DNA from: Bacteroidia bacterium
Lineage (GTDB): Bacteria; Bacteroidota; Bacteroidia; Chitinophagales; Saprospiraceae
Assembly (NCBI GenBank): GCA_030429045.1
Contig: JAUIEA010000029.1
Location: 1 to 33,085, forward strand
DNA length: 33,085 nt
Direction: 5' to 3'
Below are positions 23,730-26,825 of the stretch, piece by piece. Below the pieces are notes generated by a model. The model was not told where the DNA came from. It did no database searches and saw nothing but the letters and a program-made list of their open reading frames with translations. Both the position numbers and the translations under genes were made by a program. Within the stretch, counting starts at the first letter, position 1; each line of letters starts with the position of its first letter.

Positions 23730-24653
23730 TTATGGACGACTACCTATCGTTGTCATGAGCTTATCCCATCCTGCCCGCTTCACGGGTGTACGCCCGAACA
23801 CAGTGTTGAAGGTTTCTGCCGTCATGTCCATCCAATCCCGCTGGGTCATATCCAGCAGTTCAGGATGAGGCTCAAAGGCCGGTTCATGATGCCGTCGGGC
23901 AAACCGGTTCCAGGGACAGACCTCCTGGCAGATATCACAACCGAAGGCCCAGCCTTCCAGTTTGCCCTGGAATTCAGTCGGGATGGCTTCCCGCAATTCG
24001 ATAGTCAGGTAGGAGATACATTTCGAGCCATCCAGCACATAGCCGGAAGGAGATATGGCCTCGGTCGGGCACGCATCGATACAGCGTGTACAGGTACCAC
24101 AGTAATCCTTGATCGGCGGATCCGGCTCCAGGGGCAGATCGATGATCAGCTCCGCCAGAAAGAAGTAACTGCCGACATCCCGGTTGATCAACAGGGTGTG
24201 CTTGCCGATCCAGCCCATGCCTGATCGGCGGGCCCAGTCTCGCTCCAGTACCGGCCCGGAATCGACAAATACCCTGCCCTGGATATCTCCGTATTCTTCT
24301 TTCACCCAGCGGAACAGTTCCTTGAGTTTTCGCCGGATCGTCTTGTGGTAGTCCTCCCCGTAAGCGTACTGGCTGACCCGCGGGGCCTCCGGATCTGCCG
24401 CCACCTGCGGGTTGTGATAGTTGTATCCGAGACTGATCATACTCTTCGCTCCGGGCACCAGTTTCGACGGGTCTGTCCGCAACTCGAAGTGATTGGCCAT
24501 GTAGCCCATCTTGCCATGATAACCGGCATTGAGCCATTCTTCCAGCCGGCGGGCTTCTGCATCCATCGGTTCTGCCTTCGCCACGGAACAGAGAAAGAAG
24601 CCGAGATCGGCGGCTTTTTTCTTGAGGGCGTCACTGGGGTGGGAAGACAGCAT
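23730..24653 (-). CDS. queG: tRNA epoxyqueuosine(34) reductase
   Basis: A 307-residue QueG, the cobalamin and iron-sulfur enzyme that removes the epoxide oxygen in the last step of queuosine synthesis on tRNA. Catalytic Asp131 is in VDSGPVLERDWARR, followed by GMGWIGKHTLLI. Two [4Fe-4S] clusters are carried by CGTCTRCIDACPT (Cys185, 188, 191, 195), Cys212 and CDICQEVCPWN (Cys239, 242, 246). The length fits forms without the C-terminal HEAT repeat. A near-consensus TATCTTTA lies just before the ATG, and the repeat region begins about 40 bases upstream of the start. Confidence 0.94.
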   Translation of the reverse strand: MLSSHPSDALKKKAADLGFFLCSVAKAEPMDAEARRLEEWLNAGYHGKMGYMANHFELRTDPSKLVPGAKSMISLGYNYHNPQVAADPEAPRVSQYAYGEDYHKTIRRKLKELFRWVKEEYGDIQGRVFVDSGPVLERDWARRSGMGWIGKHTLLINRDVGSYFFLAELIIDLPLEPDPPIKDYCGTCTRCIDACPTEAISPSGYVLDGSKCISYLTIELREAIPTEFQGKLEGWAFGCDICQEVCPWNRFARRHHEPAFEPHPELLDMTQRDWMDMTAETFNTVFGRTPVKRAGWDKLMTTIGSRP

Positions 24654-24691
24654 GGGGTAAAGATAGGACGGGGGTTAGTTATCGGTTGTCA

Positions 24692-24851
24692 GTTGAAAGC
24701 GGAAATGGGAAGGCGGAAAGCGGAAGGATTGGGTATTGGGTATTGGGTAATGGGTAATGGGTAATGGGTATTGGGTATATGGCCAAAACGCTTTGAGTGT
24801 GTACAGAATTTCTGGTCCTTGTGTGCCTACCAGCCGTGGACTGGGTTCCTG
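24692..24851. repeat. Segment X, copy 1 (no insertion)
   Basis: Starts GTTGAAAGCGG, continues through a purine-rich stretch and the heptamer array, then a tail with CCAAAACGCTTTGAG and CCGTGGACTGGGTTCCTG. Copy 2 at 25705-25986 has the same parts in the same order with few base changes, a longer array, and a 73 bp insertion after its GGCGGA. Copy 1 therefore represents the empty site. Confidence 0.9.
24728..24776. repeat. Heptamer array 1, 7 units of ATTGGGT/AATGGGT
   Basis: Seven perfect-length 7-base units, four ATTGGGT and three AATGGGT. GGG recurs every seven bases with 4-base gaps, which meets the usual pattern for G-quadruplex formation on the plus strand. It lies within segment X and ends about 120 bases from the queG start. 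Confidence 0.95.
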
Positions 24852-24852
24852 G

Positions 24853-24894
24853 TATTCGGGGTTCGGTATTCGGTATTCGGTATTCGGTTTTCGG
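24853..24894. repeat. Heptamer array 2, 6 units of TATTCGG
   Basis: Six 7-base units: four TATTCGG, one GGTTCGG and one TTTTCGG. The period equals that of the ATTGGGT arrays, but G-runs are shorter. It follows the end of segment X copy 1 directly and is absent after copy 2. Confidence 0.9.
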
Positions 24895-24960
24895 TCCGGA
24901 TTCCTGAATATACTTTTGAAGAAGCTTTGGTAAACACACAAAAAAGATTGTTGCTGGTGC

Positions 24961-25043
24961 CGGTGTCTCACTGGCAGTGCGAGACGAGCTGTTTATTCTT
25001 GATCATGGCTGTGATCGAAGGTCCCGGGCGGTGTCTCACCGCC
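24961..25043. repeat. Hairpin cluster with repeated CGGTGTCTCAC
   Basis: The 11-mer CGGTGTCTCAC occurs at 24961-24971 and 25029-25039. The first lies in a hairpin built from GTCT / AGAC and CACTG / CAGTG. The second lies in a perfect 7 bp stem GGCGGTG / CACCGCC with a TCT loop (25027-25043). A third, GATCA / TGATC, sits between them. No T-runs follow, so terminators are unlikely. Confidence 0.6.
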
Positions 25044-25211
25044 TGAACAGTCCTTCCTTATGATTTTGGGGCGGCCTGAATGCATTACTGCCTTCAGCAG
25101 TCAGGATTTCGTAATTGAGGTATTGAGTTATTTCAAAGGAAGGGGATAGAAATTAAGGGTTCCTGCGTTCCTGCATACCTGTTGTTGAGCCTTGGGGTAC
25201 ATCGCCGAGCT

Positions 25212-25256
25212 GTTCAACGTTCAAGGCATCCCCGAAGTCTCGGGGAGCCAGTTCAA
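25212..25256. repeat. Small hairpin flanked by GTTCAA repeats
   Basis: GGC-AT-CCCCGA-AGTC-TCGGGG-A-GCC (25225-25249) forms a hairpin with a 6 bp inner and 3 bp outer stem. GTTCAA stands on both sides (25219-25224 and 25251-25256), and once more at 25212. It abuts double-hairpin element copy A. Confidence 0.6.
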
Positions 25257-25257
25257 T

Positions 25258-25335
25258 CCCGGACGATGGCCCTATTGCTTATAGGGCCATGTCCGGATCC
25301 AGACATGGCCCCAAGGGTTTGGGGTCATCGTCTGG
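25258..25335. mobile_element. Double-hairpin palindromic element, copy A
   Basis: Two hairpins in inverted orientation. Hairpin 1: CCGGAC (25259-25264), an unpaired G, ATGGCCCTAT, loop TGCTT, ATAGGGCCAT, GTCCGG (25291-25296). Hairpin 2: CCAGAC (25299-25304), ATGGCCCC, an 8-base loop, GGGGTCAT with one G-T pair, an unpaired C, GTCTGG (25330-25335). The ends CCCGGACGAT and ATCGTCTGG are inverted repeats with one mismatch, and the middle is a near-palindrome around GGATCC. It is flanked by AGTTCAA (25250-25256 and 25336-25342). It carries no gene, so any mobility would depend on a protein encoded elsewhere. REPIN-like or MITE-like are both possible. Confidence 0.65.
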
Positions 25336-25527
25336 AGTTCAACGTGATATTACTTGATTCCTGCGCTCAACGGCCATGGTCCCTCGCAATATCGAAATAA
25401 CGCCTTAACGAAATAACTCCACCTTAGACTCAAATGAAAGCCAACACCCACTATCTTTCTCCGCACTGGTTCCTGCCAGCCGGTGGCTGGATTCCTGATT
25501 AATCACTGGATACAGCCTGATTTGTGC

Positions 25528-25675
25528 TCCCCATTTTGAATTTGAGGTTTGGGATTCTACTTCGGATCTGGGGCGGCAGCTGAAGCAGCCGGTACGATCG
25601 TGTACTTGTGTTCGTCTTCGTTCTGTCCTTCAACCACCTTCAGGTCATTGGGATTTGGAATTTGTTTGTGATTTG
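25528..25675. repeat. Segment Y, copy 1
   Basis: 148 bases beginning TCCCCATTTTGAATTTGAGG, matching 26038-26185 with three mismatches by my count. It contains the palindromic core GTACGATCGTGTAC. It ends in low-complexity TTTG-rich sequence. No coding character is visible. Confidence 0.9.
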
Positions 25676-25730
25676 TCATTTGTGATTTGGAATTTCCCCT
25701 GTCCGTTGAAAGCGGAAATGGGAAGGCGGA

Positions 25731-25797
25731 ACCCGGACGATGGTGCTTTAGGCACCATGTCCGGATCCAGACAAGCTGCACAGCAGCTTCGTCTGGG
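25731..25797. mobile_element. Double-hairpin palindromic element, copy B
   Basis: Same frame as copy A with other inner stems. Hairpin 1: CCGGAC (25733-25738), unpaired G, ATGGTGC, loop TTTAG, GCACCAT, GTCCGG (25759-25764). Hairpin 2: CCAGAC (25767-25772), AAGCTGC, loop ACA, GCAGCTT, unpaired C, GTCTGG (25791-25796). GGCGGA flanks it on both sides (25725-25730, 25798-25803), and copy 1 of segment X has a single GGCGGA (24712-24717) with no element. This supports insertion with a 6-base duplication, although a precise loss from copy 1 would look the same. Confidence 0.7.
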
Positions 25798-25813
25798 GGC
25801 GGAAAGCGGAAGG

Positions 25814-25904
25814 ATTGGGTATTGGGTATTGGGTATTGGGTGTTGGGTAATGGGTATTGGGTAATGGGTATTGGGTAATGGGTATTGGGTATTGGGTATT
25901 GGGT
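25814..25904. repeat. Heptamer array 3, 13 units of ATTGGGT/AATGGGT/GTTGGGT
   Basis: Thirteen 7-base units, nine ATTGGGT, three AATGGGT and one GTTGGGT, within segment X copy 2. Twelve of the units are separated by 4-base gaps between GGG runs, so several G-quadruplexes could form. The different count from array 1 shows that these arrays expand and contract. Confidence 0.95.
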
Positions 25905-26037
25905 AAAAGGTATATGGCCAAAACGCTTTGAGCGTGTACAGAATTTCTGGTTCCTGTGTGCCTGCCAGCCGTGGACTGGGTTCCTGCGTTCCTGATTCCT
26001 GGTTCCTGGTTGGGACCGTGGTAGAGCCTGGTTCATG

Positions 26038-26185
26038 TCCCCATTTTGAATTTGAGGTTTGGGATTCTACTTCGGATCTGGGGCGGCAGCTGAAGCAGCC
26101 GGTACGATCGTGTACTTGTGTTCGTCTTCGTTCTATCCTTCAACCACCTCCAGGTCATTGGGATTTGGAATTTATTTGTGATTTG
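26038..26185. repeat. Segment Y, copy 2
   Basis: Matches 25528-25675 at a 510-base offset with three mismatches (G/A, T/C and G/A). It ends about 70 bases before the DinB gene start, so it may contribute to that gene's upstream region. Confidence 0.9.
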
Positions 26186-26255
26186 AGATTTGTCTTTTGG
26201 GATTTAAAACCTCGGATAACCAAAGCCGTATCTTCCCCACCAGAATATTCATACG

Positions 26256-26825
26256 ATGACAACCGAAGATCTGCTGAACCATTGGTTTTCCAGGATTGAT
26301 GCCACCACCGAGCAGATCCAGGGATTATGTGGAGCGCTGACTGCGGACCAGGTGAATCAAAAGCCTAATCCCGATGTGTGGAGCATCGCGCAGATCCTGG
26401 ATCATATCATGACCACCAACCAGTCCTATTTTCCGATGCTGGACAAGCTAGTGCTTGGTGAACTCGACCTGCCCCTCCATGGCCGACTGCCCTTCCTGCG
26501 CCGGTTCTTCGGGCGATTCATCCTGAACGGGGTTTCGCCACGTCGGGAGAAAAAGATCCGCACCTTTCCGGTCTGGGAACCGGCTACCAGCCAGTTGCCC
26601 GCAGATATCGTGGCCCGGTTCGGTCAGCATCAGGCCCGGCTCAAGTCACGGATGGAGGATGCCCTGCCGCCGCTGGAACAGGGGGCCAGCATCTACTCCC
26701 CGGCCAGCCGGATGATCGTGTACTCCCTGGCGGATGCATTTGAGATCATCGTGACCCATGAAGAGCGGCACCTGGAACAGGTGAAGGAGGTTTTGAGTGG
26801 AGGAGTGGAGGAGTTGAGGGGTTAA
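26256..26825 (+). CDS. DinB-superfamily protein
   Basis: A 189-residue four-helix-bundle protein of the DinB/YfiT-like superfamily. The metal-binding histidine pattern is visible: His50 in QILDHIMTTN and the pair in VTHEERHLEQV near residues 167-171. Members are thiol-S-transferases (for example with bacillithiol or mycothiol) or have no known role, and the substrate here is unknown. The last codons lie in a G-rich low-complexity stretch, and the stop TAA comes from a GGGGTTAAGG repeat. Start ATG 26256; the upstream side is the repeat region. A second DinB-like gene follows after 89 bases. Confidence 0.85.
   Translation: MTTEDLLNHWFSRIDATTEQIQGLCGALTADQVNQKPNPDVWSIAQILDHIMTTNQSYFPMLDKLVLGELDLPLHGRLPFLRRFFGRFILNGVSPRREKKIRTFPVWEPATSQLPADIVARFGQHQARLKSRMEDALPPLEQGASIYSPASRMIVYSLADAFEIIVTHEERHLEQVKEVLSGGVEELRG

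Follow-up and report, generated by a model that had tools for sequence, protein, structure and literature searches.

The DNA analysed here (the window, 33,085 nucleotides) is contig C38 of G000, a 4.27-Mb draft genome of an uncultured bacterium, and it contains 1.6 kb of repeats between queG (23730-24653, minus strand) and a DinB-like gene (26256-26825, plus strand). A segment that we call X occurs twice on the plus strand of these repeats, unoccupied at 24692-24851 (copy 1) and occupied at 25705-25986 (copy 2), and the initial annotation described the second as carrying a double-palindrome insertion. We find the same arrangement, with an insert of 66 bp; the 67 bp given before included the A at 25731. 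This insert, copy B of the element (25732-25797, plus strand), has the form CCCGGAC..GTCCGG-AT-CCAGAC..GTCTGGG and reads CCCGGAC(G)ATGGTGC..GCACCATGTCCGG-AT-CCAGACAAGCTGC..GCAGCTT(C)GTCTGGG; it was matched by a covariance model at 25724-25805 (E 1.0e-15). Copy 1 of segment X reads ..GGGAAGGCGGAAAGCGGAAGGATTGGG.., and the corresponding junction lies between 24718 and 24719. GGCGGA is indeed single in copy 1 (24712-24717) and present on both sides of the insert in copy 2, but the repeat is seven bases long and not six: one GGCGGAA stands in copy 1, and an apparent duplication, GGCGGAA at 25725-25731 and 25798-25804 (both plus strand), encloses copy B. A second full copy with longer tips, copy A (25258-25336, plus strand), is absent from the initial annotation. 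AGTTCAA lies on either side of it, and it is adjoined by a free-standing palindrome-like sequence, CCCCGAAGTCTCGGGG (25230-25245), resembling the CCCCGAGNNCTCGGGG palindromes that are also present in element tips.

The surroundings are themselves repetitive. At the unoccupied site, TRF reports a period-7 array with consensus GAAAGCG (24695-24725, plus strand), and the ATTGGGT array beside it has 7.3 units in copy 1 of segment X and 13.1 in copy 2. The occupied segment is flanked by a 168-bp direct duplication, 95% identical (25528-25695 and 26038-26205). Both in the window (24653-26255) and at four other loci (L178, L117, L127 and L134), the intergenic DNA is a mosaic of 7-base phrases (GGCGGAA, ATTGGGT, TTATCAG and CAATAAC) and palindromes, in which the TCAGTTA-type units resemble the TAACTGA repeats in the relevant passages of PMC4679880. 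Between queG and the DinB-like gene, the genomes G001 and G002 (L178, L179) have a gene in which DKTGTLT, the motif of P-type ATPases, was recognised by eye; that gene is absent from the window at 24653-26255.

Copy B folds into two hairpins at -27.3 kcal/mol, compared with -8.66 on average for shuffled sequences (z -8.96; none of 200 shuffles folds as well), and the fold of copy A (25257-25338) gives a z of -9.01. On the plus strand, hairpin 1 of copy B (25733-25764) has the base stem CCGGAC/GTCCGG with a bulged G at 25739, and hairpin 2 (25767-25796) has CCAGAC/GTCTGG with a bulged C at 25790; each stem holds one bulged base and ends in a variable tip. When 19 copies were aligned, leaving out 4 odd copies of 23, 94.9% of cells were paired in the two-hairpin structure, a figure favoured by construction because the structure was drawn from the same alignment. 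Half of the pairs (13 of 26) had changed on both sides, no shuffle of 500 scored as high in pairing or covariation, and slid structures were at most 40.9% paired. These compensatory changes are stronger evidence for the structure than the pairing percentage. The base stems, CCRGAC/GTCYGG, are nearly invariant in the alignment; the upper stems are swapped wholesale with pairing preserved, and the tips of some copies are the palindrome CCCCGAGNNCTCGGGG. A four-arm fold with an outer stem and a central palindrome, which pairs 88.2% of cells as against 94.9% for two hairpins, is a possible alternative state.

The CCCCGAGNNCTCGGGG palindrome is also dispersed on its own account, with 53, 67 and 21 occurrences in G000, G001 and G002 and none in G003, G004 and G012; among these six genomes it is confined to the three in which the element is amplified. 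General insertion of this palindrome into loops was considered and is unsupported, since 5 of the 47 distinct occurrences among the loci examined lengthen a stem, where shuffles average 1.88 and reach 6.

Genome searches support the proposed gene-less element and show it dispersed in many copies. The element centre, ATGTCCGGATCCAGACA, gave 64 forward and 60 reverse matches in the genome at up to 3 mismatches, whereas the reversed pattern gave 5 and 4; owing to the near-palindromic sequence of the centre, many places are counted on both strands. With the covariance model, built from the 19 copies, G000 yielded 83 strand matches at E<=0.01 (150 of 2627 candidates scored), corresponding to 45 distinct places counted by hand, of which 34 were at or below 1e-5. 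Matches at E<=0.001 were found in 6 of 40 genomes, its own included, as 72, 65 and 61 strand matches in G000, G001 and G002, 2 in G003, 1 in G012 and 2 in G028, where the counts for the congeners and other genomes are strand matches and not places. The covariance search gave no match at this threshold in G004, of the same genus, and high copy number was restricted to G000, G001 and G002 among the 40. A wider survey of the order under stricter filters found a match in 6 of 248 genomes, again including its own, which leaves a small sample, and a pattern search of contigs returned 6 stretches from two MAGs, Lewinellaceae Ww120 and Saprospiraceae Tobar13m-G19. Rfam has no family for the element region (the scores of its three hits at E<=1 fall far short of their gathering scores), and phage records held no match to copy A, the sole copy tried.

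Whether insertion duplicates its target was decided by comparing filled and empty sites. For 79 elements, the 13 bases outside CCC..GGG on each side were taken, and adjacent flank pairs with up to 2 mismatches each were sought in the DNA collected for this analysis, all from draft genomes. Unoccupied twins of the flanks exist for 32 of the 70 elements that a filter classed as outside the satellite described below, and they are mostly paralogous repeats and not orthologous loci. Offset 0 is included in 28 of these 32; the other four join at -1, -1, +1 and +7. Offsets from -9 to -4 are additionally shown by four of the 32, two of which (L108:265 and L131) are satellite contexts missed by the filter, while L136 and L141 show -8 alongside 0. 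Mismatched flank pairs gave any offset in 1-4 of 70 and offset 0 in 0-4 (20 shuffles). Filled and empty sites both exist, so the insertion is real, and it is scarless, with no target base duplicated or lost.

The apparent duplication at copy B has another source. GGCGGAA represents a single unit of the satellite (xxCGGAA)n, whose period is 7 bases, and for this reason its presence on both sides looks like a duplication. The satellite pattern CGGAANNCGGAANNCGGAA has 80 + 78 matches in G000 against 12 + 4 for the reversed control, 7 + 14 in G001, 4 + 14 in G002, and 0 or 1 in four other genomes searched. Of the nine elements classed as satellite-borne, eight have empty twins, each showing both -7 and 0, and the flanks of the window copy join at -7, 0 and +7 in 31, 27 and 33 distinct sequences. 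Copy A was flanked by repeats of AGTTCAA, and its empty twins join at 0. A MITE-type element mobilised by cut-and-paste transposition with a duplication of 6-7 bases would explain both flanking repeats, the GGCGGAA pair reduced to one in copy 1 and the AGTTCAA pair; against it, the non-satellite twins join at 0 and not at -6 or -7, the satellite itself supplies -7, 0 and +7, and no direct repeat of constant length made at insertion appears in the empty-twin test. We regard such an element as very improbable, and a target duplication of 6-7 bases, including the 6-base duplication first proposed, is rejected on the empty-twin test. REPINs had been set aside on the ground that they do not normally duplicate their target; because insertion of this element duplicates no target, that reason falls away and the element is better read as REPIN-like. 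Caution is called for in general, since a satellite with 7-base units can look exactly like a target-site duplication.

It could also be asked whether copy 1 was emptied, and is not ancestral, through a precise palindrome-aided deletion between two GGCGGAA repeats. Replication slippage between short direct repeats is established, and slippage across the hairpin would leave exactly copy 1. On the other side, the homologous repeat region beside queG in the congener G002 (L178) is without the element, and the genome has empty GGCGGAAAGCGGAAGG phrases at other places. Neither observation settles what happened at this particular site, and we consider the deletion unlikely.

The flanks of the 79 elements, which reduce to 16 contexts at up to 6 of 16 mismatches, show no constant base; the only clear preference, on both sides, is a purine at the third base outside the end (71 of 79 left flanks and 72 of 79 right flanks, the right being read on the other strand). 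After clustering, this position is a purine in 29 of 32 ends and never T, and the fourth to eighth bases are purines in 11-17 of 32. This pattern, RNN^NNY, was found post hoc and not predicted. It suggests an enzyme with a loose, two-sided target. The preference speaks for an enzyme but not for the IS608 class, because both sides are alike, in contrast to the one-sided target tetranucleotide of IS608, and a conserved one-sided tetranucleotide of the IS200/IS605 type was not seen in the 79 elements. Symmetric flank preferences are common for double-strand transposases, which fits the MITE-type alternative.

The same flanks bear on the question of whether a dedicated enzyme is needed at all. Template switching or ectopic recombination among repeated intergenic phrases could copy the hairpins and swap their tips: the 79 elements lie in 16 contexts, several of which are repeated phrases; the intergenic DNA that was read is a patchwork of short repeats; the 12 Y1 loci yielded no cognate transposase; and whole tips are exchanged at once, in some cases for the palindrome CCCCGAGNNCTCGGGG, a replacement not known from RAYT movement. 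However, identical ends and zero offset in unrelated targets, tRNA T-arms among them, are more regular than such a process would lead one to expect, as is the symmetric purine preference at the third base. The two-sided preference makes this process less likely, and the REPIN-like reading slightly less likely as well; we judge movement without a dedicated enzyme rather unlikely.

Some copies occupy tRNA gene fragments, where placements were read by eye alongside ARAGORN calls. In G000 (contig C70, L213) the element lies in the T-arm of an altered tRNA-Ala, CACCGG^TTCGACTCCGG, and in G001 (C236, L163) in that of another, CAAGGG^TTCGAATCCC, downstream of the 16S rRNA end and tRNA-Ile; an intact tRNA-Ala is adjacent in both. 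Because an intact tRNA adjoins the element-bearing copy, the empty state is ancestral at the tRNA site. These element-bearing copies have a hairpin in place of the anticodon loop, and a neighbouring G001 tRNA-Ala copy without the element is still recognised as tRNA by Rfam (36 bits). Tandem altered tRNA-Ala copies with a GC-rich hairpin for the anticodon loop stand by the intact gene at L213, L163 and L214 (G001 C222), and one altered G000 copy has an additional hairpin in the D-loop. Elements also lie in a repeated 3' part of tRNA-Phe, GGCGG^TTCAATTCCGCC, after a GIY-YIG ORF, twice on G000 C96 and once on G001 C245. In the amplified clade, a T-arm-like junction was found in 6 of 79 elements, three in G000, two in G001 and one in G002, the last (L142) not in a recognised tRNA.

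Outside G000-G002 there are nine contig loci, five of them in tRNA fragments, at which the architecture is kept and the base stems are different but compensated. The element lies at the same T-loop edge in a tRNA-Gly of G012, at the T-stem/acceptor junction of tandem tRNA-Asp 3' fragments in G003, near the T-loop of a tRNA-Asp fragment after a GIY-YIG ORF in G184, in the D-loop of a tRNA-Arg 5' copy in G072, and in tandem tRNA-Leu fragments on G049 C1. The same tandem unit occurs on G049 C16 with no tRNA called, the element on G028 C126 is near a tRNA-Leu, and those on G028 C84 and in G104 are not within a recognised tRNA fragment. Tentatively, these loci may represent an undescribed, widespread double-hairpin family (GACG..GTCxG-ATSC-xGAC..CGTC, its base-stem letters differing from genus to genus with compensation). 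Such a family would either target tRNA genes or persist in them. It is seen in six types (Ala, Phe, Gly, Asp, Leu and Arg), where it lies in a duplicated copy at an edge of the T-loop, at the junction of T-stem and acceptor or in the D-loop, without target duplication where boundaries are clear; in one Saprospiraceae clade it would have escaped from tRNAs and multiplied across intergenic DNA. If the tRNA association holds, the elements are markers of a process by which duplicated tRNA genes are occupied time and again.

A different history would start from a tRNA-targeting system, either a site-specific integrase or one of the GIY-YIG type, and would have its boundary hairpins break away and multiply. 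The homologs within tRNA fragments in other genera and families would suit this, as would the order tRNA, GIY-YIG ORF, element and tRNA 3' fragment, seen with tRNA-Phe in G000 and G001 and with tRNA-Asp in G184. We nevertheless hold it improbable: among the 21 GIY-YIG loci surveyed, most genes with an upstream tRNA have no such element beside them, and the T-arm-like junction is confined to the 6 of 79 elements given above, one of them outside any recognised tRNA. As an observation in its own right, 13 of the 21 GIY-YIG loci have a tRNA gene (Asp, Asn, Ala, Phe, Ser or Met) upstream on the same strand within about 800 bases, in some cases followed by a repeated tRNA 3' end; the loci include L230, L232, L238, L239, L240, L241, L245, L247 and L249. 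Our literature search found nothing linking GIY-YIG and tRNA genes to Bacteroidetes mobile elements, and nothing pertinent on palindromic elements in tRNA T-loops.

Candidates for a moving enzyme were sought as matches to PF01797 (Y1_Tnp), of which G000 has 4 and G001-G004 have 1, 2, 3 and 2, so that Y1 transposases occur in all five genus genomes searched. A transposase with the termini of the element, which the initial annotation had suggested looking for, was not seen: none of the 12 Y1 loci is flanked by the element within about 1.5 kb per side (less at contig ends, in drafts from which a copy may be missing), PF01797 being the only family searched, and this likewise counts against the MITE-type alternative. 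One isolated CCCCGGACGG occurs at L107 and isolated partial element motifs at L031, L102 and L103, with no double hairpin at any of them. Palindromes of other kinds (GGCCCCGTAGGGGTC, CCCGGGGTTTCAACCCCGGG and GGTGCCGGTGTCTCACCGGC) lie near several Y1 loci, and other flanks read show none; palindromic repeats are close to the Y1 genes at L031, L032, L033, L034, L100, L103, L105 and L106. By eye, the motif DHVH..WQ..Y..xQ..HH in several Y1 proteins resembles subclass 1.2 of Quentin et al., and the L106 protein resembles subclass 2.6, as far as these are set out in the pertinent passages of PMC6006769. The Y1 genes with palindromes nearby include some resembling subclass 1.2, which is described there as generally without terminal hairpins (PMC6006769). 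The genes between paired elements on two contigs, inspected by eye, are long secreted-type or uncharacterised ORFs, with no evident transposase source among them.

Considering these results, we favour, with modest confidence, a non-autonomous REPIN-like element that is moved most likely by an enzyme supplied in trans, the best candidate being an HUH tyrosine (Y1/RAYT-like) transposase. The element would consist of a doublet of REP-type hairpins in inverted orientation; in each hairpin the base stem is fixed, a single base is unpaired and the tip is free to vary. The enzyme would read the base stem and the bulge, ignore the tip, and act on folded single strands, inserting the element precisely at CCC..GGG with target bases neither duplicated nor lost and a weak purine preference three bases outside each end; the window element would then simply sit inside a 7-base satellite whose unit repeat mimics a target duplication. 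The fixed base stem with its bulge, the free tips, the doublet and the clean insertion match what would be expected of a REPIN moved by a Y1 enzyme; the analogy is with E. coli, whose enzyme depends on the bulge and does not read the upper stem specifically (PMC8266576). Our observations comprise the number of copies, their structure with compensated tips, the clean boundaries, the empty twins and the flank preference; we infer the enzyme, its class and the single-strand route, because the tag and the cognate gene are missing and the flank preference is two-sided. How palindromic repeats spread with no matching transposase is a question that PMC3733652 raises for the CGTC repeats, and it becomes testable through the occupied and unoccupied sites of three related genomes, which agree in their zero offset and flank preference.

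Among known systems, MITEs share the short, non-autonomous form with inverted ends; unlike them, the element has no target duplication and no parent transposon was found. Rickettsia palindromic elements are short palindromes inserted inside genes, according to PMC3733652, whereas the gene targets seen here are tRNA fragments. Mitochondrial double-hairpin or repetitive hairpin-forming elements are gene-less hairpins and double hairpins thought to be mobile, as summarised in PMC2800124; in the sponge examples covered there the stems are conserved and the loops vary, whereas here the upper stems vary with compensation, and those elements are organellar, in an unrelated host.

CGTC-tagged REPs come closer. 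They are found in Bacteroidetes among five phyla by Di Nocera et al. (2013, PMC3733652), and the traits listed there that our element shares are AT at the stem foot, mostly inverted pairs, no dedicated transposase and occasional nesting in other palindromes. In our element, too, no associated transposase was found and inverted pairs predominate, double hairpins being what was searched for. It differs in that the stem pairs GTC with GAC, and CGTC is located on the 3' side of its hairpin; in place of an unpaired CGTC at the hairpin end, GTC/GAC is paired in 17-19 of 19 copies, with only one base bulged.

With REPINs or BIMEs, the REP doublets moved by RAYT (TnpA-REP), the element shares two inverted imperfect hairpins and a gene-less, intergenic, many-copy state, and its inverted doublets are dispersed, clade-restricted and cleanly inserted without target duplication. 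It lacks the GTAG tag (neither GTAG nor CTAC stands within 8-9 bases of the ends in any of the 79 elements), no cognate RAYT flanked by the same hairpins was found (0 of 12 Y1_Tnp loci), its tips change as whole blocks, fragments of tRNA genes harbour some of its copies, and its weak flank preference is symmetric. Whole-doublet excision has been observed in Pseudomonas, as the corresponding passage of PMC3116915 reports. E. coli TnpA-REP cannot do without the bulge in the stem, whereas it recognises the upper half non-specifically (PMC8266576), and the element shares with E. coli REP this bulged stem with a specific lower and a non-specific upper part. The CGTC repeats, by the description in the cited sections of PMC3733652, are the nearest published orphan class, and we take the element to be a variant form of REP/REPIN-type repeat.
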